Source: Dactylorhiza incarnata (lineage: Eukaryota > Streptophyta > Magnoliopsida > Asparagales > Orchidaceae). From it: DNA of 64,000 nt. Of the stretch, positions 2,266 through 41,771 are shown one piece after another; position 1 is the stretch's first letter, and each line of letters begins with the position of its first letter. The notes beneath the pieces are model-generated. The model made no database searches. It was not told the DNA's origin and worked only from the letters and a program-made list of their open reading frames with translations. The position numbers and the translations under genes are program-made. The stretch is taken from contig JAWHQI010000068.1 of assembly GCA_033032865.1 (NCBI GenBank), positions 9,486,001 to 9,550,000 on the forward strand, read 5' to 3'.

Positions 2266-4004
2266 TGATGAGTCCTGATCATATACACATATTTGGACTC
2301 ATCTAGGCCGGTTTTCTAGTCGTTTCACTGCACTTTAGCCCTGTTTCAGCTCATATTTTTCTATCTATGCTAGGTGCACTTCTTGGCCTAATTTGGTGTG
2401 TTTTATGCTTATTCCCTTTTGATAGCCTTATCATTTTGTTGAGTGCCACTTTCAGTGTCCTTATTAGCATTTCTGTAGAAATAGGAGTCGTGCAGGTGTT
2501 CCTGGTAAAATTCTGTACAGGAACACTGCGCACGATCACTGGTTCAATTGCGCACGACCACTAGTCGTGCGCCGCTGATCGTGTGCACTTAACCCTTTTT
2601 TCTGAGTTCTGTCTCGGACAGTGCGCACGACCACCTGCGATAGTGCGCACGACCACCATTCGTGTGCACTTAACATCAATTTCATGAGTTCTGTTTCGAC
2701 CAGTGCGCACGACCACCTGCGATAGTGCGCACGACCACCGGTCGTGCGCCACTGTTCGTGCGCACTTAACATCAATTTCATGAGTTCTGTTTCGACCAGT
2801 GCGCACGACCACCTACGATAGTGCGCACAACCACCGGTCGTGCGCCTCTGGTCGTGCGAACATGGTATTTTATAAATTTCATACTTTGTAGGCTCGACCC
2901 AGGCAGGCGCACGATCACAGAACTCCAGCGCGCACGACCACTGGTCGTGCGCCAATGACCGTGCGCACTGTTTATTCCAGTGCCTATAAATTGTCCTGCT
3001 CGCGATTTAGGTCGGGGATCCCGCATTTTTTGCTATCCAGTCCGCCGTTTTTGCCCCTTCCGCCGGTTCTCCGCCCCCCTAGGCCTCCTCCATCATCCTT
3101 GAGCTCCAAGGAGAGGTTTCTAGCCCAAAGATCGCCAACGTCGAGCAAGGAGATCGTGTATCGGAGTAGATTTGATCGTGACACGAAGAAGATGAGCCAT
3201 TGGGAGGAAGTGACAGCCCTCCTCTACCTCGGACGCAGTTGAAGACCGAGCTTGGATGCGGATTGACAACCCAGCGATTCCAACCGTGAATCTTCGGCAT
3301 GGCTTCGGATGTGGTCGACTCCTTTACCCTCTTTTCCTTCTTTATGTTGATGATTCTTTAAGTTAGACTCTTCTATATTTTGATGATATACACAATGAAT
3401 CTTGTTATGTAATGTCTATTTCATTTATTTGAGATTATACTATTCATATGTGTTTATGAGGTGCGCCCCCATCTAATTTCCATTTCGCTTTCATGTTCGT
3501 GTGTCGCACTAGCAATTGCTAGTGGCGTGCTTATCGACGAGGTGCTTGCGACCCTCATCTGTATGCCTACTCGTCCATCTGCCTACCGAAGCGTGGCATC
3601 GCGGCTCGTATTCCATTCGCCTAACGAAGCAGCGCGCTCAAGGCCTGCATAGTTCAATTCCGCTAGCCTACTCGTCCATCCGCCCAACGAAGTAGTTCGC
3701 TCAAGGCCTACGTGGTCTTCCATCCTGCTGAGCGAAGCTTTGCATAGCGGCATTGCATAGGAGTAGTTGTAATATTTTATTTTATTATTCACAAACCAAA
3801 TCCCTTTTGTCCGCACTCCACATATCGCTGGACTTCGATCTCAAGTCCTTCCTCGAACATTAACTCCACCTTCCTGTGTTCCTTGAGAGATTCGATACTC
3901 GGGGATTACTCCTCATTTTATATTACTTGAACGATCGGTACACTGCCGTTTCGTGTCGCAGTCTTACTACCGCCTATAGCGGTGTGCTAAGATTTGCGCC
4001 ATCA
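2266..4004 (+). repeat. Athila-1 5' LTR
   Basis: This LTR is 1739 bp and the 3' LTR 1731 bp; they are near-identical by eye except for shuffled units in the palindrome array. TG...CA ends are present. The downstream half carries tandem words around TCAAGGCC and CTACTCGTCCATC at about 3565-3730. Minus-strand ORFs in 2536-3026 are translations of the palindrome array, not genes. Confidence 0.9.
2535..2990 (+). promoter_or_regulatory. Athila-1 U3 palindrome array and TATA box
   Basis: Many copies of GCGCACGACCAC, often followed by its reverse complement GGTCGTGCGC, form near-perfect palindromes inside a tandem unit of about 97 bp (for example 2700-2795). The last arm ends at 2968, 16 nt before TATAAATT at 2985. 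The 3' LTR has the same arrangement (TATA box near 9709) with fewer or rearranged units. It probably sets the start of transcription. Palindromes rich in CpG may also be targets for methylation or proteins; that is inference. Confidence 0.65.
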
Positions 4005-4010
4005 AGTTTT

Positions 4011-4028
4011 TGGCGCCGTTGCCGGGGA
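4011..4028 (+). other. Athila-1 primer binding site (tRNA-Asp)
   Basis: TGGCGCCGTTGCCGGGGA is the exact complement of the plant tRNA-Asp(GUC) 3' end, the usual primer of Athila elements. It lies 6 nt after the LTR end. Confidence 0.85.
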
Positions 4029-4222: not shown

Positions 4223-5458
4223 ATGTGGGCACATCTTAATATCCGTTGCCGTTGGTGTAGAGATACTTCCCACTCTAGTGATGAATGCCCTACGGAGAAT
4301 AGTAGGCATGATTCTTATAGCCCAACATATGGAGCACCGACTTCGTCTGGTACTCCATATGGTGCGCGTAAGTCTTATGGCTACTCTGCTGAGCCTTTAC
4401 CGTCATACTTCTTTTCAGCTTCAGCTCCAGCTGTACCAAAGAAGCCCGCAAGGCAGTGCCGGTTTTGTCGGAGCACTGATAATGTCTTGAAGGACTGTGC
4501 CAAGTATCTTCGCCAATTGGACGAGGATGACGAGCCGGATATCCGGATCATCCCAACTCCTAACTCTGGCGACACACCTTCAACATCCGGTTATGTGTCT
4601 TTGTCACCTTCACATCTTGAAGGGTATGGTATGGACACGGACACCGGATGTGTGGCTGATCTATGCACCGACATTGCTGAGCCTATTCTCCATGTACATC
4701 CACCACCTCTAGTGGATTCGATTCTTTGTGAGGAGTTGGTGCTCGACTTTTACCGAAGCACTATTCTTCCCCCTATTGTGCATACTACATTCGTCTCTGA
4801 CGACATTATCGATGATGTGTCACAAGAGGAGGCTGTTGATCTGAGTGTTGTTCCTACTCCTATGGAGGAGGACAACCTTCTATGTGAAGAGGAGTTTACC
4901 TCAACACCGGTGGAGGAAGTCCAAATCCTAAGCCTGGCCACCGTTGATCCCGCTGAACCTTGTAGCATTGATGACAATGCAAACATTATTTCACTTCCCC
5001 AACCTGATGGGAGTGAGACCGGGATCACTCCCCCGTTTGATTTTTATTTAAGTCATTCTTCTTCTTTATTTCTTGATCCCACTTCTTTATCTGAACCTGT
5101 GCAGGTCGAGTCTTTACAGGTACTTCAGGAGGGCTTGGAGCACGATGCTCAAGTCAATGATGCTAGCATCCTCTCATGTGAGGAGGCTGATTCCCCCTCC
5201 GTAGAGGAAGCTCCACTCATTGCCATTTCCACCTGCCACCTCCCTGTTGACGACACCTTGCTAGGCAAGGATGTGTTTGGTGAGTTGAGTGAGGATATCT
5301 CCTCCTCTTCTTACTTTCTGTTTCCTCTACCTGCGTTATGTAGAAATTATCATTTGGGTAGAGGAGTAACTGTTTTATCACTGTATCGGTACCTGTTACT
5401 GACACGCGTATTAGAACAGTTACCTGTTCATTTCCTTTTTCATACGCCCATTAGCTAG
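4223..5458 (+). CDS. Athila-1 ORF1: zinc-knuckle acidic protein, unknown function
   Basis: 411 codons, intact. Near the N terminus is a CX2CX4HX4C zinc knuckle (CRWCRDTSHSSDEC, residues about 9-22). A second knuckle-like CRFCRSTDNVLKDC follows near residue 80, with Asn in place of the His. The rest is acidic and rich in Ser, Pro, Glu and Asp without a recognisable enzyme domain. The segment GSETGITP also occurs in the ORF of Athila-2, so the two proteins are related. A nucleic-acid-binding, Gag-like role is plausible from the knuckles and its position after the primer site. No Athila Gag core is present. The ATG was chosen as the first in the open frame after the leader. Confidence 0.6.
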   Translation: MWAHLNIRCRWCRDTSHSSDECPTENSRHDSYSPTYGAPTSSGTPYGARKSYGYSAEPLPSYFFSASAPAVPKKPARQCRFCRSTDNVLKDCAKYLRQLDEDDEPDIRIIPTPNSGDTPSTSGYVSLSPSHLEGYGMDTDTGCVADLCTDIAEPILHVHPPPLVDSILCEELVLDFYRSTILPPIVHTTFVSDDIIDDVSQEEAVDLSVVPTPMEEDNLLCEEEFTSTPVEEVQILSLATVDPAEPCSIDDNANIISLPQPDGSETGITPPFDFYLSHSSSLFLDPTSLSEPVQVESLQVLQEGLEHDAQVNDASILSCEEADSPSVEEAPLIAISTCHLPVDDTLLGKDVFGELSEDISSSSYFLFPLPALCRNYHLGRGVTVLSLYRYLLLTRVLEQLPVHFLFHTPIS

Positions 5459-8997: not shown

Positions 8998-10728
8998 TGA
9001 TGAGTCCTAATCATATACACATATTTGGACTCATCTAGGCCGGTTTTCTAGTCGTTTCACTGCACTTTAGCCCTGTTTCAGCTCATATTTTTCTTTCTAT
9101 GCTAGGTGCACTTCTTGGCCTAATTTGGTGTGTTTTATGCTTATTCCCTTTTGATAGCCTTATCATTTTGTTGAGTGCCACTTTCAGTGGCCTGATTAGC
9201 ATTTCTGTAGAAACAGGAGTCGTGCAGGTGTTCCTGGTAAAATTCTGTACAGGAACACTGCGCACGATCACTGGTTCAATTGCGCACGACCACTGGTCGT
9301 GCGCCGCTGATCATGTGCACTTAACCCTTTTTTCTGAGTTCTGTCTCGGACAGTGCGCACGACCATCGGTTGTGCGCCACTGTTCGTGCGCACTTAACAT
9401 CAATTTCATGAGTTCTGTTTCGACCAGTGCGCACGACCACCTGCGATAGTGCGCACGACTACCGGTCGTGCGCCACTGTTCTTGCGCACTTAACATCAAT
9501 TTCATGAGTTATGTTTCGACCAGTGCGCACAACCACCTACGATAGTGCGCACGACCACCGGTCGTGCGCCTCTGGTCGTGCGAACATGGTATTTTATAAA
9601 TTTCTTACTTTGCAGGCTCCACCCAGGCAGGCGCACGATCACAGAACTCCAGCGCGCACGACCACTGGTCGTGCGCCAATGACCGTGCGCACTGTTTATT
9701 CCAGCGCCTATAAATTGTCCTGCTCGCGATTTTGGTCGGGGATCCCGCATTTTTTGCTATCCAGTCCGCCGTTTTCACCCCTTCCGCCGGTTCTCCGCCC
9801 CCCTAGGCCTCCTCCATCATCCTTGAGCTCCAAGGAGAGGTTTCTAGCCCAAAGATCGCCAACGTCGAGCAAGGAGATCGTGTATCGGAGTAGATTTGAT
9901 CGTGACACGAAGAAGACGAGCCATTGGGAGGAAGTGACAGCCCTCCTCTACCTCGGACGCAGTTGAAGACCGAGCTTGGATGCGGATTGACAACCCAGCG
10001 ATTCCAACCGTGAATCTTCGGCAAGGCTTCGGATGTGGTCGACTCCTTTACCCTCTTTTCCTTCTTTATGTTGATGATTGTTTAAGTTAGACTCTTCTAT
10101 ATTTTGATGATATACACGATGAATCTTGTTATGTAATGTCTATTTCATTTATTTGAGATTATACTATTCCTATGTGTTTATGAGGTGCGCCCCCATCTAA
10201 TTTCCATTCCGCTTTCGTGCTCGTGTACCGCACTAGCAATTGCTAGTGGCGTGCTTGTCGATGAGGTGCTTGCGACCCTCATCCGTATGCCTACTCGTCC
10301 ATCCGCCTACCGAAGCGTGGCATCGCGGCCCGTATTCCATTCGCCTAACGAAGCAGTGCGCTCAAGGCCTGCATAGTTCAATTCCGCTAGCCTACTCGTC
10401 CATCCGCCCAACGAAGTAGTGCGCTCAAGGCCTACGTGGTCTTCCATCCCACCGAGCGAAGCTTTGCATAGCGGCATTGCATAGGAGTAGTTGTAATATT
10501 TTATTTTATTATTCACAAACCAAATCCCTTTCGTCCGCACTCCACCTATCGCTGGACTTCTATCTCAAGTCCTTCCTCGAACGTTAACTCCACCTTACTG
10601 TGTTCCTTGAGAGATTCGATACTCGGGGATTACTCCTCATTTTATATTACTTGAACGATCGGTACACTGCCGTTTCGTGCCGCAGTCTTACTACCGCCTA
10701 TAGCGGTGTGCTAAGATTTGCGCCATCA
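8998..10728 (+). repeat. Athila-1 3' LTR
   Basis: It starts TGATGAGTCC directly after the polypurine tract AAGTCTGGGGGTG and ends GCGCCATCA. It differs from the 5' LTR by scattered substitutions and by the make-up of the palindrome array (9260-9690). Confidence 0.9.
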
Positions 10729-10759
10729 ATCATACCAATCCAACAAGTGGTATTTGAGC
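10729..10759 (+). other. Copia-2 5' LTR terminus and primer binding site
   Basis: The last LTR bases end TCCAACA at 10745. TGGTATTTGAGC at 10748-10759 matches the iMet tRNA complement TGGTATCAGAGC at 10 of 12 positions. This shows that the gag ORF after Athila-1 belongs to the LTR begun at 1111. Confidence 0.75.
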
Positions 10760-22567: not shown

Positions 22568-24022
22568 AAAATAAATTTAAACAAAGAGTGAAGGAATAAT
22601 GAAAGGAGACAGAACAGAAAATCACAGCACAAGACAAAAGCTATAGTAGTTTCCTAAACTTTGTGTATATTCACACTTCTACCACCATTGTAGGAATACA
22701 CTAAATAGTGCCTGAGTCTTTTGATTAGGAGACTCCTAGAACCACTGAGTCTTTCGCTAAGGAGACTCTTAGAACCAACTACTAAGTCTTTTGATAAGGA
22801 GACTTTTAGAATGAATCTAGATCTTTTGATAAGTACATCTTGAACCACTGAATCCTTTGGAGATGGATTCTCAAGACTCTTTACACAAGTTGTAGAAAGT
22901 GACAGGAGGAAAAGAAGAAAGAGAAAATGTTGTAGATTCTTCTGTTGATGTTCTTCAGGATCTATTTTGAATGAACTCTTGCTTACGGTAGAGAAGAATG
23001 CAAGGGTTGTGATATTATGATTCTGATTATCTCTCTGTACTCTTGATAGCTTCCTACTATAAATATAGAAGACGAAGAAGCAAAGCATTTGTATATTCCT
23101 GTACAGAGATGTTGTTCTTTGTTTTCTTTCTAAGAGAGAGAGAGAGAGCTTCAGCAAGCAGAAGACTAAATTATTCAATTGTTATTGTTCTCTTCATTCA
23201 TCTGTATCTTTATTCTTTGTCGAATAGTATTTGAATTTGTTTCCTCTTCTGTTATGTCCTTAGAAGGAATATCCATTGGACAATAAGTATTTCTTTCTAT
23301 TTCTATCTCCTGACCCGTCAATCTAATTTGAATAACTTCCAAGAATGACTTTGTTGTCTCTCTGGAGTACTCCATTCCATTCTTGTCCATAAATGAGCCG
23401 TTAGAAATCAGACTATAGCCTTGAATACTTTCTGGAAAAGCATCAGAAATGACAGTAGAAAACATTTTATTTCTTTCTGTATTTGACGTAGCATCGAATT
23501 CATCTTACTTCTAATCGACGCACCCCAGAGTTCTTATAGAAGCAGCTTCAAAATCCTTCTTTGCTCTAACTAAACTCAGATGTCAACGTTGCTTCCAATA
23601 CTTATCGACGTATCCATCTAGTTGAAGACTTGGACTTTTAACTCCATCTTCTGCATTGAAATAAAATTGAAGTTGCATCGATTTCTGTTATTTCTTGGAC
23701 AGTTGTTGTCTTCTCCGTCGAGTACATTTTGACATTGTGTCGACTTCACTTACACATTTACTTCAGTATGAGTTACTTCTACTTGTATTCAAAGTTGCTT
23801 TGACTTTCAGTCGAAGTTGCGTCAACTTTATTCGACACAAGCTTAACTCAACTGAATTTTGTGTTTGTTTAGGACAGGTCTTGACACTCTGGTGTGAGTG
23901 TGATATTCTAGGACATCTAATTACCAAATTACCCTCACTATACAACATGGGTAATACATCCTAGATTATGATAACACTGTAAAATAATTTGTAAGATAAA
24001 TCAAAGGGTGTTTTTTCTAATA
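22568..24022 (-). repeat. Copia-1 5' LTR, outer piece
   Basis: It continues the LTR interrupted at 1110. It carries degenerate GAGTCTTTTGATAAGGAGAC repeats (22707-22830), a TATA-like TATATTTATA on the minus strand near 23055, and a GTCGAC-rich stretch (23470-23850). It ends about 24022 by alignment with Copia-3. The minus-strand ORFs at 22654-23178 and 23175-23465 are LTR translations, not genes. Confidence 0.75.
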
Positions 24023-24539: not shown

Positions 24540-25450
24540 TGAAAGTGCACAGTGTGCCTCTGAGTATTCTCTAGAGGGCGATGAATAGAGTTTTAAAAAT
24601 TTTATACCCTAGTTATGTACACACAATAAAACTACTAAATACAATGCAATCACCAATACCAAGCAGAATATAGTAAGCACAGAAAATATGAAACAGAAAA
24701 ACAGTAAACTGGACAGCACAGAAAATCAATGCAGAAGATAGAATTTTTATAGTGGTTCCCCAAAATGTGGGTAGTCCACTCTTCTAACTCCCCGGTAGGA
24801 TTGCACTAACATCCCTGAGTCTTTTGATAAGGAGACTCTCAGAACCACCGAGTCTTTTGATAAGGAGACTCTTAGAACCACAGTGTCATTTGATAAGGAG
24901 ACTCTTAAAACCACTGAGTCTTTTGATAAGGAGACTCTTAGAACCACTGAATAATTTGGAAGAGGGATTCTTAAAACTCTTTTACAGTTGGAGATGGAGA
25001 ACATTAGAAGAAATAGAAGAAGAAGAAGAGAATAGGATTCTTCAGTTGAATCCTTCAGCAGCTATCTCAATGGTTATTGTTACTTCTATATATTTCAGGA
25101 TCTGAATATGATGATCCCTTGCTTAAGATAGTGATGATTGCAAATGATATAAGCTTTGATCCTGATCTTCTCTGCACTTTTGTTGACTTGCTGTTATATG
25201 ATGTAGAAGATGAAGCAGTAGTCTTGTTGTGATCTTTTCCTGTGCAGAGCAGTTGTTCTTTAGTTCTGTCTTAGGGTTGGAGGAGGAATAAGAAGAAGCA
25301 CTAGTCGACAGAATAATGAATCAGTTGCATATTCTTTCATCCTCAGCATACTTATTCTCTATGATTGGAGTTTGAATTTCTTTCTTCTTCTGGACTGTCC
25401 TTAGAAGGAATGTCCATTGGACAATAAAGGTTTACTTCTATTTTTGTTCC
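24540..25450 (-). repeat. Copia-3 3' LTR, piece 1
   Basis: Aligns with 40154-41060 of the 5' LTR, including the four 33-bp hairpin repeats at 24817-24950. It stops at 25450 where Athila-3 begins. Compared with the 5' LTR, about 32 bp (equivalent of 41061-41092) are missing at the junction. Confidence 0.85.
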
Positions 25451-26674
25451 CTCCCGCGCCACTTCCCGTTGAAAGCTTCCCGTCAGGCGCTGTTTAAAGA
25501 TTACACGCCCTAGGTCACGGGCATGGCCTAGGGCATGATGCACATGTAATGCCAGCATTGAAGCCAGAAGGCGTCTATCCCGCACCAGCTTTGATCATGC
25601 CAAGTACACGCCCTTGGTCACGGGTGTGACCGAGGGTGTGTAACCTCATTTTGCACTCTATTTAAAGCCAGCTCCACCAGAACTGAGGGGATGAATTTTG
25701 GAGGCTCAAGACTTTTTTTCTTACTTTGTTTTCATGTTTTAAGCATTTCTTGTATTTCTCTTTCTAGTGCAGTTGTAAGTTTAAATTCATGTACTTTTCT
25801 TTTGTAATTGTATCTTTCATTTCAATAGTTTGCAATTTAAATTCATTAGTTTATAATTCCTTTTGAAAAACTTAATAAAAATTAATTATTATTCTTCTTA
25901 ATCTCTTCTTCATTTCATCATGAATTCTTTCATTTTCGTCGATTCCTCCATCTCCATGAGTAACTAAATTTCTATTTGTACCCGGTCGAGATGATCCAAG
26001 GAATAATAAACCTCATGAAATAAATTTAGATTCCCTTTTTTCTCTTCTTAGAATACTTAAGATTTATCCTTGATTTTAACAATATGAGATCATATTATCG
26101 ATATATGATTCTCGTTCTTGTTTTAGTTCTTTAGTTAGCCAAACTAGCTCATAAGGCGAATCGATCATTCAAGGATAAAGAGAGTTGCATGCAACCCTCG
26201 AGAGAGGATGGCACAAATCTCCCAGATTGGAGTCAAATGCAATAGAGGGGTTCACCTCGGTAAAGCGAGTTTTAGGGGTTTTGATTCTAGAGCTAAAGAT
26301 TGATTGATCAATCTAAACTCAGCTGGGCTTATCCTCGACCCAAGGTGCACTTAGAATTTGGGAACCTCCACGGTCTAAGCATTTCTTTGAAAGAGAATTA
26401 GAGTCTTATTTTATTTTGGTTATTTTTGTTCTAAGTTGATTCAAGACCAAGTGTTAATCGTCCTTATTAATGTTTTAATCGCTATTCTAATTCTCCGTAT
26501 TTTCTTTAGAAACAAAACAACTCCAAGCTTTGTTTATAAAATAATAGAGATTTTCTTGAAGTAATAGTACTCTACCACCCCGAGTCTAATACGACCTTGG
26601 TTTTTCATAAACATATACAACCTTCAGTATTGTACACTTGCCTTTGTCATTTGCGGATATAGTTTTGCGCATCA
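25451..26674 (+). repeat. Athila-3 5' LTR, 5'-truncated
   Basis: Aligns with 34290-35493 of the 3' LTR and ends GCGCATCA at 26674. Palindromic ACACGCCC...GGTCACGGG words lie at 25502-25642, with TATTTAAA at 25659-25666. The minus-strand ORF at 25352-25585 is a shadow. Confidence 0.85.
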
Positions 26675-26680
26675 AGTTTT

Positions 26681-26698
26681 TGGCGCCGTTGACGGGGA
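26681..26698 (+). other. Athila-3 primer binding site (tRNA-Asp)
   Basis: TGGCGCCGTTGACGGGGA, one change from the canonical tRNA-Asp complement, 6 nt after the LTR. Confidence 0.8.
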
Positions 26699-26805
26699 AC
26701 ATGAGTTGATATTTCGAAAAAAGAAATATCTATTAATTTTATCGTTCTCTTTCTTCTCACCTTTCTCTTAAAAATTTTAAAAATCTTAAAAGGCGAAATT
26801 TAAAT

Positions 26806-27138: not shown

Positions 27139-28779
27139 AGTTTGACCCGAGGAAACTCTTCAATTAATCTTGAATTGTGTTTTGATCTGGAAATCAAGCA
27201 CACCTTGCGGCAATGTCTCTGATTTAGTGATCCATCAATAATTCGTGAAGAGTCAATCGGAGAACCTAACGAGGGTATAATATAAGATCCCCACCATAAC
27301 GAGGCCCCGTTACGCACCATGTCCTATTATGCGAGGTCAAATTGGGAGGGAACACAATCTAGTATTATTCGCCCGGCGGAGGTGAATAATAATTTTGAAA
27401 TTAAAATGAGTATCATTCAAATGGTACATCAAACCGTCATATTTGATGGCTTACCAGATGAAGATCCTAAGTTACATTTCTTAATTTTTTGGAAATTTGC
27501 GACGCTTTCAAAAAAAATGGCGTCACTGATGACGCCATTCATTTTCATTTATTTTCTTTCTCTTTGTGGACTAAGGCCAAGCAATGGATGAGGTCTCTTC
27601 CTATAGGTTCCATCACTACATGGGCCGAGATGACCGAGAAAATTTTAACGAAATATTTTCCTCTGGCGAAGTCCGCTAAATTACGTACGGTAATTCTCTC
27701 ATTTATGCAAATAGACTCAGAGTCTCTCTACGACACATGGGAGCGCTTCAAGTAACTCTTGTGGAGATGTCCTCATCATGCCCTTCATGTGTGGCAACAA
27801 CTTCAAACATTCTACAATGGTTTGAATCTCCAAACGAGGCAGATGATTGATGCGGCCGTGGGGGACCCTTAATAACAAAACCCCTGAGGCAACTTAAGAG
27901 ATTTTCGAGGAGATGGCCATGAATGCTTATCCATGGAATGCACCACAGTCTCCCCCTAACAAGCCGATCAGACACTTTGAAGTCGAGGTCACCCCGAATT
28001 TAGCACTTCAAGTAGAAATGCTCACAAAGCAAGTGACGGAGATGTCTGCTTCCTCTGCAACTTATTGGGCTAATAATAATAATAATTTTAATAATAATAA
28101 AAATTTTATTCAAGAGCATGTAGATTATATGGGGAACTCATATCGTCCTCCTTATAACCCGAATAATAATCTTCCGTTTAATAATAGTTATAATACGGAT
28201 TTAAGGAACCACCCAAATTTTTCATGGAGCAACCCCAATAATGCTCAGCGTCCACCACAAGTGAATCTTCCCGAATTCGCTCCACCACCACCACACAAGC
28301 TCCCTTCATTTGAAGAGGCCTTCACTAAATACGTTGCCTCTAATGATTCCAATATCTGGAACCTTAACGGATCTATTAGAAGCTTAGAAAATCAGATTGG
28401 ACAGCTCGCCAAGATGTTCTCCGAACGCCAGCAAGGATCTCTACCAGGCAATACTGAGCCCAATCCACGGGAGAGTGCCAATATTATAAACCTCCATAGC
28501 AGAAAGGAGGTAACTTCCCCAATTTTGTTCGAGCCCGAGGTAAACGTTTCATCCTCTCTTCCACAAGTTAATTCTACTTTAGCTCCATGCTTTAGTAAAA
28601 ATCCTTCTCTCCCTTATCCTTCAAAATTTAATGATAAGCGCAATGAGAAGCAATACAAAAGATTTATTGAAATTTTAAAACAAATCCAAATAAATGTGTC
28701 TTTCTGTAAAGCGGTCACCCAAATGCCCAAATACGCCAAATATCTAAAGGATTTACTTTCAAATAAAAAAAACTTGTAA
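27139..28779 (+). pseudogene. Athila-3 gag
   Basis: Athila-type Gag with the Retrotrans_gag domain (PF03732): DDAIHFHLFSFSLWTKAKQW, GSITTWAEMTEKILTKYFP and YDTWERFK at 27.52-27.76 kb, then QTRQMIDA and EEMAMNAYPW. The Asn-rich linker, SFEEAFTKYVASNDSNI and LENQIGQLAKMFSERQQGSL complete the C-terminal part (27913-28779). The start corresponds to ATGACCCGAGG of Athila-4 at 56871 but reads TTGACCCGAGG here, so the start codon is lost. Frames change near 27490 and 27860, with several stops. Gag would assemble particles for the element. No CCHC knuckle, as usual for Athila. Confidence 0.85.
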
Positions 28780-28784
28780 ATTTT

Positions 28785-29594
28785 TTGCGTGTATATCTAA
28801 ACGCAGAATGCTCGGCAGTTTTGTTTAATAAATTACCACAAAAATTAAACGACCCAAAACGGTTCTCCATCCCGTTCTTGTTCGGTAATTTATTAATAAA
28901 ACACGCTTTGGCAGATTTGGGCGTTAGTATTAATCCGATGTCGTTTTCTTTGTTTAAAAAGCTTGGTATAGGCAATCCAAGCCCAATAAAAATTAGCATC
29001 CAACTAGCAGATCGATTGATAAAATACCTGATCGGGGTTATTGAGGATGTGCTTATTAAGGTTGACAAATTTATCTTCCTGGTAGATTTTGTCATCCTAG
29101 ACATTAAGGAAGACGCCGAAGTACCTATTATACTTAGATGTCATTTTCTCGCCACCTCTCGGGAAGTTATTGATGTTAGTAACAGAAAACTACTCCTACG
29201 AGTTGGGGATGAAGAAGTTATTTTTAGTATAAACAACTCTATGAAAAAATCTTTTTCTAACGACGATTCCTGTTTTACATTAGAAACAAAATTTGAAGGG
29301 GAATCGTCGCCTTTGTCCGAATTAATCTCACCAATTTTTGAAGATCCAGAATTTGTTACTGAGGAAATAGCTCGGTCTTTAAAATTCAAACAGATAAATT
29401 TTATTAATGACAAATTTAAAACATCTTATGACGAACTACCGAGCCTTGAATTAAAGCAACTCTCGGATCATTTAAAATATATATTTTTGGAAAAAGTTTC
29501 AAAATTTCCCGATATCATATCCTCCGCGCTTAATGATTCGAAAATTTCCGATTTAATTAAAACTTTAAATAATCACCTCCATGCAATTGCATGA
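28785..29594 (+). pseudogene. Athila-3 aspartic protease region
   Basis: Open for 269 codons. The protease core reads ALADLGVSINPMSFSLFKKL (active-site Asp at residue 44, about 28914), in the DLGAS-type form of Athila elements. A flap and second half follow, with LRCHFLATSREVIDVSNRK and LLRVGDEEVIFSI. The rest is the linker before RT (LKQLSDHLKYIFL). In an intact element it would be part of a Gag-Pol polyprotein; here the upstream and downstream frames are broken. The minus-strand ORF at 28715-29104 is a shadow. Confidence 0.8.
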
Positions 29595-30996
29595 CAAATT
29601 TCAGATATCAAGGGAATAAATCCCTCATTTTGTACGCATAAAATAAATTTAGAAAATAATTCTCGCGACACTATTCAGCCTCAACGGCGCCTTAATCCCA
29701 ATTTGAAGGACATTGCAAGGCCGAAATTATTAAATTATTAGACGTGGGGATTATTTACCCAATTTCTGATAGCACATGGGTTAGTCCGGTGCAAGTCGTG
29801 CCTAAAAAGGGCGGAATAACGGTAGTCACTAATGAAAATAATGAGTTGATTCCAACCCGTACTGTTACTGGTTAGCGACAATGCATCGATTATATAAAAT
29901 TAAATTATGTTACCCGTAAGGATCACTTTATGTTGCCCTTCATTAACCAAATCTTAGAACGCTTATCCGGTCACTCACACTATTATTTTTTGATGGTCTT
30001 TCGGGATACTTTCAAATCCCAATTGCCCCCGAAGACCAATAGAAAACTACTTTCATCTGCCCTTTCGGCACCTACGCATATCGAAGAATTTTGTTTGGTC
30101 TTTGCAATGCGCGGGCTACATTTCAAAGATGTATGTTGGCAATTTTTAATGAATTAGTAGAGGACGTCATGGAAGTTTTCATGGATGATTTTTTAGTCTT
30201 TGGCGATTCCTATACTAATTGCCTAAACAATCTTGATCGTGTTCTACAATGCTGTGAAGAGATGAATTTTGTACTCAACTGGGAGAAGTGCCACTTTATG
30301 GTCCAAGAGGGATTAGTCCTCGGACATAAAGTCTCGAGTAAGGGGATCGAGGTCGATAGGGCCAAGATCAAAGTCATAGAAAAACTTCCTCCTCCAACCA
30401 ATATTAAATCTATTAGAAGTTTTCTAGGACACGCGGGCTTCTATAGGCAGTTCATTCGTGATCTTTCAAAAATAACAAAACCACTAACGCATTTACTAGA
30501 AAAAGAATCCGCGTTTATTTTTGATGAAAATTGTTTAAAGCCGTTTAATTAAATTTAAAATGAACTTATCAATTTGCCTATTCTACTTGTGCCAGATTGG
30601 TCTCTTCCGTTCGAAGTCATGTGCAATGCAAGTGATTTTGCTTTAGGTGCGGTTTTGCGACAACAGGTGAATAAATATTTTCACCCAATTTATTATGCAA
30701 GCAAAACGATTACATCCGCCAAAGCTAATTATACAACAATGGAAAAAGAACTTTTCGCAATTGTTTTTGCATTTAATAAATTTCGTTCATATATAATGCT
30801 ATCTAAATTATTGTTTTGCACACCACTCCGCCCTCTGGTACTTGCTAGATAATGGGGACGCCAAGCCCCGACTACTGAGATAGATTCTCCTCCTGCAAGA
30901 ATTCGATTTGGAGATCCGAGACAAGAAAGGAGCAGAGAATTTGGCGGCCATCCACCTCTCATGATTGGAGAACCCAATGGCAGCAGAACTACTAGA
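29595..30996 (+). pseudogene. Athila-3 reverse transcriptase and RNase H
   Basis: RT starts in a damaged stretch (29.6-29.9 kb) and continues with DHFMLPFINQILERLSGHSH (about 29.92 kb). The frame shifts near 30000 and again near 30080, then MFGLCNARATFQRC leads to the catalytic FMDD at 30178-30189. The connection NIKSIRSFLGHAGFYRQFIR follows. A stop at 30550-30552 precedes RNase H, where FEVMCNASDFALGAVLRQ (Asp of CDAS changed to Asn) and ASKTITSAKANYTTMEKELF are clear. The frame is lost again at about 30810. It would copy RNA to DNA, but is inactive. Confidence 0.85.
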
Positions 30997-31004
30997 GGCC
31001 AAAA

Positions 31005-32340
31005 TTGATGATAAATTCCCTGAAGAATGCCTCCTCGCATCGAAAAGGTAATGACTTCTTCGACCCCTTGGTACGCGGATCTTGCCAATTATTTAGTGGC
31101 ACGGGTCCTCCCAAAGAATTTTTCAAGTCAACAAAAGAAGAAATTCTTTTCGAACTTGAAAATTTACTTTTGGGAAGATCCCTTTTTATTTAATGTCTGC
31201 GCGGACCAAGTGGTAAGAAGGTGTATTTCAGGAGAGTAAGGCATCCAAATATTGCGGCACTGCCATGAAGGACCAACCGATGGTCATTATCAAGCAAACC
31301 AGATAGCAAGAAAGGTGCTAGGGGCGGGCTTTTATTGGCTCACCCTATTCAAAGATGCTCACAATTTTGTGAGTAATTGTGATCGGTGCCAACGGTCAGG
31401 TAACATTTCCAACCGGGATGAAATGCCCCAAAACATTATTGTAGAATGTGAAATTTTTGATTTATGGGGAATATATTTCATAGGTCAGCTACCTTCCTCC
31501 TTTAATAATAAATTCACTCTTATTATAGCCGATTATGTGTCGAGGTGGGCGGAAGCACAAGCCCTTCCCACCAACGACGCGAGAGTCGTCGTAAATTTAA
31601 AAAAAAAATATTTTCATGATTTGTCTTACCACATGCATTAATTAGTGATAGGGGCACGCACTTTTGTAACAACCAACTTGCTAAAATTTTAGCAAGGTAT
31701 GCCATTACACACAAGCTTTCAACCGCCTATCACCCACAAGCAAATGGCCAAGTGGAGGTAGTGAACCGAGAGCTAAAAAGAATTTTAGAAATAATAATGT
31801 CGGCTAATAGAAAGGGTTGGTAGCTAAAATTAGACGGCGCTTTATGGGCTTATCAGATGGCATTCAAAACTGCCATCGGATGTACGCCGTACAGATTAGT
31901 CTTTCGAAAAGCGTGCCATTTACCGGTAGAATTGGAACATCGCGCATTTTGGGCACTTAAAATTTTAAATTTAGATTTAAACTTAGCCTCTAAACAAAGA
32001 AAATTTCAATTGAACGAATTAGATGAATGGCGTGCAAACGACTACAAAAATAATAAATTTTATAAAGAGCATACTAAGTTTTATCATGACAAAAAAATTA
32101 AAAACCCAAATTCTTTTTCGTCGGGAGATCTAGTCCTCTTTAATTCTAGACTTAGGCTTTTTTTGGGCAAATTAAAATCCTGATGGTGCTGACCCTTTTT
32201 AGTAAAAGAGTTTTGGCCATATGGGACCATTCTAATAGAGCACCTAAAAAATGGCTCATTTAAGGTTAACGGACATAGGTTAAAATTGTACCACCTCGGC
32301 TACCCTACGTCCGGAAACATTAAAATGCTTAAAATTTATA
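31005..32340 (+). pseudogene. Athila-3 integrase
   Basis: [20 protein letters not shown], then the HHCC zinc domain (HCHEGPTDGHY ... NCDRCQ, 31.26-31.39 kb). The catalytic core's first Asp is replaced by Tyr (GIYFIG where GIDFMG is usual, about 31474). The second Asp is kept (SDRGTHFCN, about 31650) and the Glu too (GQVEVVNREL). Stops near 31640 and 31820 and a frame change before 31857 break it. The C-terminal part ([34 protein letters not shown]) and KVNGHRLKLYHL end near 32300. No chromodomain. Inactive by both frame damage and the lost catalytic residue. Confidence 0.85.
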
Positions 32341-32786: not shown

Positions 32787-33195
32787 TAAAAAATTTATCT
32801 CCCCCTTACTTTGTGTTTTTATTATCCACTAGAAATCTAGTTTGAGAAGTAAATATAAGCATGTTACATTTTTAATCTAGCTAATATTTTGTTTTATCAA
32901 AATTTGTTAAACTTAAATTTGAAGTCATTTAGTTTTAAGAAACACCTTATGTTTTTAATTAAATTAGAGATCGTATTTAGCACTACTTCTCTTTTTAATT
33001 TTAAATGGCTCCACTTTGTAGTAAATTGGCAAAACAACCTTGGATTGTTATTATTTTCTCTACTAACTTTCAAGATCTTAGGAAACTTCTTTCCACTAAA
33101 AAGTTGCTCTCAAAATAGTTTAATTGAAAAACTAGAATTATCTCTTTACCCACCACCCCTTGTTGGCAAATAAAAAAAATATAGAAATAAAAGAT

Positions 33196-33456
33196 CATAT
33201 GTCATGGGAATAAGAGGAAAAAATTCATTATCCCCTAAACATATGCACCCAAAATCACTTAAAAGATTATATGTCACGAAGTAAGAGGATAAAATTCATT
33301 ACTTCTAAACATATACATTTTGGGTTTTTTGATTGAAGAGAACTTTTAAAAAGATTATATGGCATGGAAAATAAGAGGATAAAATTCATTATTTTCCTAA
33401 ACATATACAAATTCTTATTCAAATAAGGTGGAGGATAAAATTCATCACCTCTATTT
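33196..33456 (+). other. Four-unit hairpin array with invariant loop GAGGATAAAATTCA
   Basis: Units at 33196-33245, 33268-33315, 33356-33407 and 33421-33456. The loop is GAGGATAAAATTCA in three and GAGGAAAAAATTCA in the first. Inner stems: GGGAATAA/TTATCCC, GAAGTAA/TTACTTC, GGAAAATAA/TTATTTTCC and AGGTG/CACCT. Units 1-3 have an outer stem CATATG/CATATG or TATATG/CATATA, joined by TAAA on the 3' side. The stems change sequence but stay paired while the loop is constant, which points to selection on a folded RNA or single-stranded DNA. Confidence 0.7.
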
Positions 33457-33854
33457 TAGTATCTCTTCCTTTTGCCAGTTTGATTAAAACCCATCCTTAG
33501 CCAATTTCATTGGTTCTAGTTCTAAATTAGATTATTAAGAGAGCAATACTTTGGTAGGTATATTTTCCTTAAGCTTCATTTTGTTAGAGTTTCTATAATT
33601 TCAATCTAATTTGTATGAGAATTTCTCCAATTTTGTTTGCTAAATTGTTATCTTGAGAAGTCTTTTAGCTAAGCATGTCTCTGTTTTAAAAGTAACACCA
33701 TAATTTGAGACTTAATTATTTAATTACTAGAATTTATCTTTGACTTACTATTGATTTAACAAATTTTTAGTTAGTTAAATATAATATCAATGTCTTGTAG
33801 ATTATCTCTCATTATTTTGCTCTAGAATAGCAAAAGCTCAAGTATGGGGGTGTT

Positions 33855-35493
33855 TGATGAGTAGTTTATTTACTCATCTTTTAGTATAATTTTATTATTA
33901 TTTTAATATCAATTTATAGAATTTATATGAATTACCCTAGAAAAATCATTTCTTTTCATATTTATGTATTAACTTAAGTTTATTTTATATTTTCAGATTT
34001 CCTGAGCATTTTGAGCAATAATTGCAAGTACACGCCCAAGGTCACGGGCGTGACCAAGGGTGTGACAGCCTAAGATGTGTTCTAGACCTTCTGTCGCCAC
34101 CCCGGGCTCATTCAGTGAAGATTCGCCAAGTACACGCCCCAGGTCACGGGCGTGACCAAGGGTGTGACCTAGAGTCACGACCGCGACCTGCCTCATACAG
34201 CCAGATCAGCATGCCATGTCATTTAAAATTACATGCCCTAGTCATGAGCATGATCGGGGGCGTGACATCCAGTACACGGGCATGATCCCTCCCACGCCAC
34301 TTCCCGCCAAAAGCTTCCCGCCAGGCGCTGTTTAAAGATTACACTACCTAGGTCACGGGTGAGACCTAGGGCATGACGCACACGTAACGCACGCATTGAA
34401 GACAGAAGGTGTCTATCCCCCACCATCTTTGATCACGCCATGTATACGCCCTTGGTCACGTGCGGGACTGAGGGCGTGTAACCTCATTTTGCAGTCTATT
34501 TAAAGTCAGCGCCACCAGAACTGAGGGGATGAATTTTGGAGGCTCAAATCTTTTTTTCTTGCTTTGTTTTCATGTTTTAAGCATTTCTTATATTTCTCTT
34601 TCTAGTGCAATTGTAAGTTTCAATTTGTGTACTTTTCTTTTGTAATTGTAGCTTTCATTTCAATAGTTTGCAATTTAAATTCCTTTTGAAAAACATAATA
34701 AAAATTAGTTGTTATTCTTCTTAATCTCTTCTTCATTTCATCATGAATTCTTTCATTTTTGTACGTTCCTCCATCACCATGAGTAGCTAAATTTCTATTA
34801 GTACTCGGTCGAAATGATCCAAGGAATAATAAACCTCATGAATTAAATTTAGATTCTCTTTTTTCTCTTCTTAGAATAATTACGATTTATCATTGATTTT
34901 AACATAATGAGATCATATTATCAATATATGATTCTCGTTCTTGTTTTTGATCTTTGGTCAGCCGAACCAGCTCGTAAGGCGAATCGATCATTCAAGTATA
35001 AAGATAGTTGCATGCAACCCTCGAGAGAGGATGACATAAATCTCCCTGATTGGATTCAAATCTAATAGATGAGTTCACCTCAGTAAAGCGAGTTTTAGGG
35101 GTTTTGATTCTAGAGCGAATGTTTAATCAATCTAAACTCAGTTGGGCGTATCCTAGACCCAAGGTGCGCTCAGAATTTGGGAACCTCCATAGTCTAAGCA
35201 TTTCTTTGAAAGAGAATTAGAGTCTTATTTTATTCTTGTTATTTTTGTTCTAAGGTGATTCAAGACCGAGTGCTAATCGTCCTTATTATTGTTTTAATCA
35301 TTATTCTAATTCTCTGTATTTTCTTTAGAAACAAACCAACTCCAAGCTTTGTTGATAAAATAATATAGATTTTCTTGAAGTAAAAGTACTCAACCAGCCC
35401 GAGTGTAATGCGACCTTGGTTTTTCATAAACCTATACTACTTTTGATACGGTACACTTGCCGTTGTCATTTGCGGATATAGTTTTGCATATCA
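33855..35493 (+). repeat. Athila-3 3' LTR
   Basis: Complete, 1639 bp, starting TGATGAGTAG after the polypurine tract and ending GCATATCA. The U3 array of ACACGCCC, GGTCACGGGCGTGACC and GGGCGTGTA words (34028-34481) ends 15-16 nt before TATTTAAA (34497-34504). ORFs of 60-90 codons here are shadows. Confidence 0.9.
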
Positions 35494-36173
35494 AATGTAT
35501 TTGTTGTATTTCTGAAATACTCCATTCCATTCTTGGCAATAAATGAGTCATTAAAGATCATAATTTAGCCTTGCAGATCATCTGGAAAGGCACCAGAGAG
35601 GACAGCAGAAAACCTTCTACTTCTATCTATATTCGACGTTGCGTCGACTTCATCTTTCATCATATCGACCCACCTCTGAGTTCTTAAAGAAGTAGCTTCG
35701 AATTCCTTCTTATCTCTAGCTGAACAGAGATGTCAATGTTACGTCGAGTACTTATCGATGTATCCATCGAGTTGAAAACTTGGACTTGAACTTTATCTTC
35801 TGCGTCGAATTGAAGTTGATGTTGCATCGACTTCTAGGATTGCTTCGACAAGCTCTTCCTTCTGCGTCGAGTTCCTTTCGACATTGCGTCGACTTGACTT
35901 GATACTTCGATAGGAAGATTGAGTTACTTTGACTTTCAGTCAGAGTTACGTCGACATCTAGTCGAAGTTGTGTTGACTTCTATTCGACACAAGTTTTAAC
36001 TCAACTGAATTTGTGCTTCTCTTAGGCCTGGTCTTGACACACTAAGTGAATGTGATATCCTAGTACATCTAACGACCATTTTACCCTTTCTATACAATGT
36101 GGGTAATTCAACCTAATAGATGAAATCACTTTAAGATAATTTGTTAGATAAATTAAAAGGGTTTTTCCCAACA
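35494..36173 (-). repeat. Copia-3 3' LTR, piece 2
   Basis: Continues the LTR from the equivalent of 41093 and ends TTTTTCCCAACA at 36173. It contains GTCGAC-rich inverted words such as TCGAC-attgc-GTCGA near 35879. The minus-strand polypurine tract (ATGAGGAGAT) follows at 36174-36183. Confidence 0.85.
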
Positions 36174-40153: not shown

Positions 40154-41771
40154 TAAAAGTGCACAGTTTGCCTCTGAGTATTCTCTAGAGGGGTGAATAG
40201 AGATTTAAAACTTTTATACCCTAGTTATGCACACACACTAAAACCACTAAGTACTATGCAATCACCAATACCAAAACTGAATAAAGTAAGCACAGAAAAT
40301 ATGAACCAGAAAAATAATAAACTGGACAACATAGAAAATCCATGCAGAAGACACATCATTTGTATAGTGGTTCCCCTAAATATGGGTAGTCCACTCTTCT
40401 ACCTCCCTGGTAGGATTGCACTAACATTGTCTGAGTCTTTTGATAAGGAGACTCTCAGAACCACTGAGTCTTTTGATAAGGAGACTCTTAGAACCACTGA
40501 GTCTTTTGATAAGGAGACTCTTAGAACCACTGAGTCTTTTGATAAGGAGACTCTTAGAACCACGGAATCCTTTGAAAGAGGGATTCTTATAACTCTTTCA
40601 TTGTTGGAGATGGAGAACAGTAGAAGAAAAAGAAGAAGAAGAGAATATGATTCTTCAGTTGAATACTTTAGCAGCTATCTCTATGGATGTTGTTGCTTCT
40701 ATATATTTCAGGATCTGAATATGATAATCCCTTGCTTAAGATAGTGATGATTGCAAGGGATATAAGCTTTGATCCTGATCCTCTCTGCACTTTTGTTGAC
40801 TTGCTGCTATATGATATAGAAGATGAAGCAGCAGTCTTATTGTGATCTTTTCCTGTGCAGAGCAGTTGTTCTTCAGTTCTGTCTTAGGGTTGGAGGAAGA
40901 AGAAGAAACACTGGTCGACAGAATAATGAATCAGTTGTGTATTCTTTCTTCCTCAGCATACTTATTCTCTATGATTGGAGTTTGAATTTCTTTCTTCTTT
41001 TGGACTGTCCTTAGAAGGAATGTCCATTGGACAATAAAGGCTTCCTTCTATTTTTGTTCCTGACCCATCCATCTGATTTGAATAACTTCCAAGATTGTCT
41101 TTGTTGTATCTCTGAAATACTCCATTCCATTCTTGGCAATAAATGAGCTATTAAAGAACATATTTCAGCCTTCCAGATCATCTGGAAAAGCACCTGAAAG
41201 GTCACAGAAAACCTTCTACTTCTGTGTATATTTGACGTCGAGTTGACTTCATATTTCGTCATATCGATGCACCTCTGAGTTCTTATAGAAGTAGCTTCAA
41301 AATCCTTCTTAGCTCTGGCTAAACTCAGATGTCGACATTGTGTCGAGTACTTATCGACGTATCTGTCGAGTTGAAGACTTGGACTTAAACTTTATCTTCT
41401 GCGTCGAATTGCAGCCAAAGTTGCGTCGATTTCTAAGATGGCTTCGACAGGCTCTTCCTTCTGCGTCAAGTTCCTTTTGACGTTGCGTCGACTTGACTTG
41501 ATACTTCGACAGGCAGATTGAGTTACTTTGACTTTCAGTCAGAGTTATGTCGACATCTAGTCGAAGTTGCATTTACTTCTATTCGATGCAAGTTTTAACT
41601 CAATTGAATTTGTGTTTCTCTTAGGCCTGGTCTTGACAAACTAAGTGAATGTGACATCCTAGGACATCTAATGACCATTTTGCCCTTTCTATACAATATG
41701 GTAATTCAACCTAACTGATGAAATCACTTTAAAATAATTTGTTAGATAAATCAAAAGGGTTTTTCCCAACA
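40154..41771 (-). repeat. Copia-3 5' LTR
   Basis: Complete, 1618 bp; on the minus strand it starts TGTTGGGAAAAACCC. A GTCGAC/TCGACG-rich stretch (41230-41590) lies upstream of a TATA-like TATATCATATAG (about 40808-40819, minus strand), and the 33-bp repeats lie downstream of it. The plus-strand ORF at 40193-40744 is a translation of the LTR. Confidence 0.9.
40433..40565. repeat. 33-bp tandem repeat, four copies, each with a hairpin
   Basis: Each 33-bp unit contains GAGTCT, a 10-nt spacer TTTGATAAGG and AGACTC, a perfect 6-bp stem. Four units here and four at 24817-24950; three degenerate units in Copia-1 (22707-22830). They lie downstream of the likely TATA box on the element strand, so they should be in the transcribed leader. 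Confidence 0.85.

Follow-up and report, generated by a model that had tools for sequence, protein, structure and literature searches.

The window analysed here is a 64,000-nt stretch of the Dactylorhiza incarnata genome, and it contains an LTR retrotransposon that is Athila-like in its sequence features. The 5′ LTR of this element (25445..26675, + strand) is shortened on its 5′ side and shows 89% identity to 34283-35494, within the 3′ LTR (33855..35494, +). The start of the 3′ LTR, TGATGAG, was set by comparison with the LTR starts of two other loci (L109 and L118), and the 5′ LTR of the same copy lacks anything corresponding to the first ~430 nt of this 3′ LTR. The 5′ LTR is adjoined by a primer binding site, TGGCGCCGTTGACGGGGAA (26681..26699, +), which we take to be of the tRNA-Asp type. 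Downstream lie TATTAATTTTATCG (26731..26744, +), one base from a 5′ motif, TATTAMTTTTATCA, that is common to array-bearing elements, and a broken gag-pol region (27286..32180, +) with gag-like, protease-like, RT, RNase H and integrase pieces in several frames. The hairpin array at 33196-33456 occupies the non-coding stretch between the integrase pieces, which end near 32180, and the 3′ LTR. A polypurine-tract-like sequence, AAGTATGGGGGTG (33840..33852, +), stands directly before the 3′ LTR, and its G run begins 415 nt past the start of the last loop.

The LTR pair, the primer binding site adjoining the 5′ LTR and the PR-RT-RH-IN order are features of Ty3/gypsy Athila elements. RVT_1, RNase H and Integrase_H2C2 pieces were matched in that order, and RVP_2 stayed below the cut-off. 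Athila Gag usually carries a zinc knuckle; the gag-like pieces of the window (27898-28776), and also L121, are Asn-rich where it would be. A weak match to the plant snoR71 (27713-27784, − strand; 34.3 bits versus a gathering score of 40) lies inside the gag region. The names among the best 120 of 7,991 RT relatives indicated no clade. An additional RNase H is given as a mark of the Tat clade in the accessible part of PMC6317226; no further RNase H match was found among the six window pieces scanned, in which the reading frames are broken and little room is left between the RNase H and integrase pieces (30849 to 31024/31240). Athila ORF-1 is present in 16% of Athila elements according to the same partial text (PMC6317226), and neither this nor the optional env-like ORF was represented by a + strand open frame of more than 104 codons between 32200 and 33850.

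The sequence-only reading had described four hairpin units in the array, and their coordinates and sequences were correct. Unit 1 (33196..33245, +) has the outer stem CATATG/CATATG, an imperfect inner stem GGGAATAA/TTATCCC, which sets 8 nt against 7 with one bulge or mismatch, and the loop GAGGAAAAAATTCA (33214-33227), which carries one change. Unit 2 (33268..33315, +) has the outer stem TATATG/CATATA, the inner stem GAAGTAA/TTACTTC (33278-33284 / 33299-33305) and the loop at 33285-33298, and it is flanked by an extra pair formed by CCCAAAAT (33248-33255) with ATTTTGGG (33317-33324). Unit 3 (33356..33407, +) has the same outer stem, the inner stem GGAAAATAA/TTATTTTCC (33366-33374 / 33389-33397) and the loop at 33375-33388. 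Unit 4 (33426..33450, +) consists of an inner stem only, AGGTG/CACCT, around the loop motif (33431-33444). Units 1-3 share one architecture, with a 6-bp outer stem, an internal loop, a 7-9 bp inner stem and the 14-nt loop motif, and their outer stems fold as had been claimed, with 6 bp each. The common 14-nt loop, GAGGATAAAATTCA, was confirmed as exact in units 2 and 3, around which the inner stems are perfect (7 bp and 9 bp), and with one change in unit 1. The claim that the inner stems are all different and all paired holds fully for units 2 and 3; the stem of unit 1 is imperfect, and 15 nt separate the arms of unit 4. Relatives of unit 4 have AGGTGA/TCACCT with the exact 14-nt loop, so unit 4 of the window has lost one A.

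Folding of 33150-33500 gave z = -3.95. RNAfold puts three further pairs inside the 14 nt of units 1-3, so the open loop may be smaller than the motif. Loop-like matches with at most 2 mismatches numbered 8 in the 64-kb window versus 1.47 expected. Tandem Repeats Finder reported no array at 33196-33456; only the loop and the stem framework are common to the units, so they do not have the whole-unit similarity of a head-to-tail, satellite-like repeat. At E values of up to 1, none of the Rfam 15 covariance models matched the array.

The exact loop occurs 20,355 times in the 3.27-Gb genome (10,161 and 10,194 on the two strands), and the reversed-loop control occurs 13 times (4 and 9). Around the exact loop, stem pair 2 is G-C in 8,403 copies (TGA/TCA) and A-T in 10,152 (TAA/TTA), and the mismatched forms G.T (TGA/TTA) and A.C (TAA/TCA) are found in 149 and 198. 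Pair 2 is thus Watson-Crick in 18,555 copies and not in 347 (98.2% matched, odds ratio about 2,900); the four forms make up 92.9% of all exact loops, and the table is a description rather than a p-value, because the copies are related by descent. G.T is no commoner than A.C, either genome-wide (149 v 198) or among distinct stems at positions 1-8 (14 v 18), so these mismatches do not point to the sense strand. Viral contigs contained no relatives of the array. Seventy-two stretches of prokaryote contigs each had one match to a 17-mer, and these matches were judged to be chance.

To examine whether the stems change in pairs, 101 loop matches (at most 3 mismatches) were collected from 42 arrays, namely the window, L097, 20 stretches of about 10 kb and 20 of about 500 bases. 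The 94 matches with at most 1 mismatch (77 distinct) were tested, and the seven with 2-3 mismatches were left out. The loci were chosen by the exact loop from the first contigs listed and are not a random sample. An APC-corrected G was calculated for 1,596 column pairs and compared with a null in which the parsimony substitutions of each column were scattered randomly on the branches of a FastTree tree (400 sets; 60 in a first run).

After removal of the bulged base from 12 rows, stem pairs 2, 6 and 5 ranked first to third of the 1,596 pairs. In these 94 bulge-edited hairpins, pairs 2 and 6 lay above all 400 tree-based null sets (family-wise p <0.0025 for each), pair 5 reached 0.0475, and pair 4 ranked fifth and was not significant. 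When the 12 bulged hairpins were dropped, pairs 2 and 6 were significant and pair 5 was not; when the bulged rows were left unedited, pair 2 alone was significant. In the ten elements without a pol match taken alone (26 hairpins, 23 distinct), pairs 2, 4, 5 and 6 were all significant. Pairs 1 and 3 hardly vary and are uninformative on covariation. The claim of compensating stems is thus borne out for pair 2 in every version and for pair 6 unless the bulged rows stay unedited, less strongly for pairs 4 and 5, while pairs 1 and 3 are silent.

Simple pairing counts were also made. Stem cells were paired in 88.5% of cases in register versus 38-68% when one arm was slid by 1-3 bases, and 81% of the distinct stems had at least 7 pairs with their own arms versus 46% with arms swapped between stems. 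The 5′ arms are purine-rich, except at position 3. A pattern search could read the outer stem in 59 of the 94 hairpins, some of them out of register; this stem is mostly invariant, and paired changes occur in it, as in L106 (CATACG/CGTATG). The sequence-only reading had also held that the folded form is selected, and the covariation check across many copies of this genome came out significant. Together with the retention of the array in pol-less elements described below, these results indicate that selection maintains a folded single strand that works in cis.

The loop is better conserved than the neighbouring DNA, so neither of the two outcomes that the sequence-only reading had named as refuting it was observed. 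Substitutions per column were 0.93 in the loop, 5.75 in the stems and 10.5 in the flanks, the loop figure being flattered by the loop-based choice of loci. Two less biased counts were obtained. When units were found through another anchor, TAAACATATGCACCC, the exact loop stood at the expected place in 13 of 21 first units, these 21 being those of the 100 anchor places listed that lay within a stretch with a full set of loop positions. Among the other loops of the same arrays, 39 of 59 were exact. In a plain alignment of the 3′ region, the best columns were the hairpin framework and the polypurine tract; some hairpins fall out of register there because the number of units differs, so the loop and other means (0.75 vs 0.68) are not a fair measure. 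The counts include one locus, L115, where the exact loop has neither a paired stem nor an LTR context.

The array keeps a nearly constant place. In 9 loci the junction of polypurine tract and LTR follows the start of the last loop by 413-464 nt; the end point taken was the G run in five loci and TTTGATGA in the other four. The comparison covered 21 long loci, the window and 20 fetched ones. Eight of them (the window, L103, L104, L110, L112, L113, L119 and L121) have pieces of RT, RNase H or integrase upstream of the array, and three are unclear (L105, L115 and L122). The other ten (L106-L109, L111, L114, L116-L118 and L120) are bounded by LTRs of 90-100% identity, have no pol match inside and carry the first loop 562-640 nt ahead of the 3′ LTR. 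LTR identity is 97-100% in six of these ten, which indicates that elements without a pol match were recently copied while carrying the array. An array consists of one to four hairpins with one common loop.

Some of the elements without a pol match contain open frames on the + strand, of 394 aa in L106 (5456-6640), 325 aa in L111 (5491-6468) and 209 aa in L120 (5092-5721). The L106 and L111 frames end alike, and a zinc-knuckle-like motif is present in the L111 and L120 frames; Pfam gave no match for any of the three. L118 has a 118-aa sense frame, and L107, L108, L109, L114, L116 and L117 have no sense frame of more than 102 codons. One strand of contig C42 shows the loops, the 5′ motif and the anchor at a spacing of ~4.3 kb, a pattern that resembles short array-bearing elements arranged in tandem.

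The 5′ motif TATTAMTTTTATCA stands ~50 nt past the start of the primer site in array-bearing elements. It was exact in 10 of the 13 elements with a known 5′ end, and present in 12 when one mismatch was allowed; genome-wide it occurs 7,231 times versus 239 for the control. Written as TATTA[A/C]TTTTATCA, the motif is seen in the window (26731-26744, one base off), L106, L107, L110, L111, L114 and L116-L120. Among 45 motif places, taken from 100 listed, the exact loop followed downstream on the same strand within 12 kb in 26 (26 of 43 without two places on contig C20 that have no loop), lay upstream in 6 and was on the opposite strand in 1. The 26 distances were 1.1-2.3 kb in 13 cases, 6.4-6.6 kb in 11, and 3.7 and 7.9 kb in the last two. 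These two sharp classes suggest that short and long classes of elements carry both signals. Conversely, 26 of 50 arrays had the exact 5′ motif upstream and 24 had none within 12 kb upstream.

Paired changes around a constant loop suggest that something reads the loop, and that the stem would only present it or hold it in shape. The folded molecule would be the sense RNA, or possibly the minus-strand cDNA. The reader of the loop would probably be a protein, and several hairpin copies may provide avidity. Because elements without pol need signals in cis for transcription, export, packaging, reverse transcription and integration, the array would most likely be a docking signal on the RNA, and the fact that elements with no pol match have kept it argues for a signal in cis. 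Our preferred reading, held tentatively and at somewhat less than even chances, is that the hairpins are protein-docking sites that mark the element RNA for packaging into particles. It is preferred because the sharing of the array by long and pol-less elements fits a signal for common particles, and the retention without a pol match is compatible with a putative packaging signal needed in cis. Elements without pol would then be carried through this signal by the proteins of their pol-bearing relatives. Packaging is the least certain step of the proposal. In its widest form, which may well be right but which we would not quite back at even chances, a modular docking array that shows one loop one to four times on exchangeable stems would be a common entry ticket, letting thousands of pol-less retrotransposons use the machinery of pol-bearing relatives, and would be the first structured replication signal for plant Ty3/gypsy elements.

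Several observations weigh against packaging. The Gag pieces of L110, L119 and L121 are only 50-55% identical to those of the window, yet the loop is unchanged across these families, which a host factor would explain no less readily than a co-evolving Gag. The sequence upstream of the array gave no zinc knuckle in the window, L110, L119 or L121, whereas the unclear locus L122, with a 34% gag match, has one. The array lies near the 3′ LTR, whereas retroviral packaging signals are usually near the 5′ end. Much of the 3′ end is common to short and long elements, so part of the retention could be hitchhiking. The 24 arrays without the exact 5′ motif also count against the proposal.

A close rival, possible though on the unlikely side, is that the array would serve RNA export or localisation and be read by a host protein, much as transport elements serve simple retroviruses and the mouse IAP and MusD elements, since pol-less elements also need their RNA in the cytoplasm. 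The position between pol and the 3′ LTR, the invariant loop across elements with diverged Gag, the several hairpin copies and the presence in elements with no pol match are all consistent with such a role, whereas no Rfam family matched the array, and plant elements are generally without introns, so that the need for export is less clear (PMC12786077, in the part available). RNA export of LTR retrotransposons has not been directly studied in plants, as stated in the accessible text of this December 2025 review, which also treats RTE and MTE as cis RNA elements (PMC12786077).

The CTE of M-PMV, the RTE of IAP and the MTE of MusD are likewise structured cis RNAs between the coding region and the 3′ LTR, and they are used by RNA that leaves the nucleus whole; the CTE has repeated recognition loops. 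Elements of this kind help unspliced RNA out of the nucleus through NXF1 or cofactors. The array differs from them in having no Rfam match, in consisting of one to four separate small hairpins with one loop and in its plant host. Several short hairpins with a common recognition element are also found in retroviral psi and in the 3′ coat-protein sites of alfalfa mosaic virus and ilarviruses, whose 3′ ends form multi-hairpin coat-protein sites. Unlike psi, the array is near the 3′ LTR rather than in the 5′ leader, and no zinc knuckle was detected upstream in the four loci named above. Sireviruses likewise have conserved non-coding motifs upstream of the 3′ LTR near the polypurine tract, but they are Ty1/copia elements with several copies of the PPT and a single inverted repeat around the PPT/LTR junction, and the accessible portion of the source describes no common loop on exchanging stems (PMC2829016). 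Retand repeats occupy the same region between pol and 3′ LTR of related Ty3/gypsy elements in several copies, but they are family-specific tandem repeats in the part of the article available, whereas the array copies keep the fold and the loop and not the whole sequence (PMC11963269).

A third explanation, which we regard as improbable, is pairing within one RNA molecule: the loops would bind a partner on it, such as the motif after the primer site, and so close the molecule into a circle for reverse transcription. The abundance of TATTAMTTTTATCA and its travelling with the array are consistent with this, and the TTTTATC of the motif is complementary to the GATAAAA of the loop. In 12 of 13 elements the longest exact loop complement inside the element was longer than the average for 30 shuffled probes, and in two (L111 and L118) no more than 1 of the 30 shuffles matched its length, single-base shuffles being lenient for an AT-rich loop. 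In contrast, when duplexes were predicted between the loop and the first 160 nt past the 5′ LTR, 0 of 16 regions reached p<0.05 against dinucleotide shuffles, and the A/C change beside the motif core has no compensation in the loop. A kissing partner near the primer site was therefore rejected, since the predicted pairing is no better than that of shuffles, though the complement lengths lean slightly its way.

Still more improbable is that the pairing is kept by mutation alone. Template switching at imperfect palindromes, in which one arm is re-copied from the other, would produce changes on both sides without function, and several elements were recently copied as judged by LTR identity. However, this process leaves unexplained the non-palindromic loop that is exact in 13 of the 21 anchor-found units, as well as the near-constant place and the retention without a pol match. 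Least probable, and very doubtful indeed, are ordinary tandem duplicates or small-RNA precursors whose fold has no role: tandem repeats are common between pol and 3′ LTR in related Retand elements (PMC11963269, available part) and the region 3′ of gag/pol in Athila6 yields siRNAs in Arabidopsis (PMC3276544, likewise in part), but duplicates are contradicted by stems that change in pairs while the loop stays, and small-RNA precursors would preserve the stem sequence, whereas here the stems are short and vary.

The kind to which the array would belong, the cis-acting structured RNA of an LTR element, is known, and the form of the array is found in none of the families tested. In the full-text literature searched, with subscription journals mostly outside it, the loop string was in no paper, and searches for Athila hairpins or conserved RNA structure returned nothing on this array. 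The signals by which plant LTR retrotransposons have their RNA exported, packaged and copied are little known, although such elements account for a large share of many plant genomes. With about 20,000 natural copies, spread over long and pol-less elements, the question can be tested directly, the loop being a defined bait for a binding protein and the natural stem variants ready-made controls.

Other repeats are also present in the window. Two further elements, with primer sites at 4011 and 15519, have no loop, and no 5′ motif in the 150 nt scanned. An LTR-bounded element with the same primer site type has LTRs at 2266-4005 and 8998-10729 (97% identity) and lacks the hairpin loop; its ORF at 4223-5458 is a 411-aa frame with CRWCRDTSHSSDEC. 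A 33-bp tandem repeat, CTGAGTCTTTTGATAAGGAGACTCTTAGAACCA, is found at three places, 22712-22849, 24815-24977 and 40431-40616.
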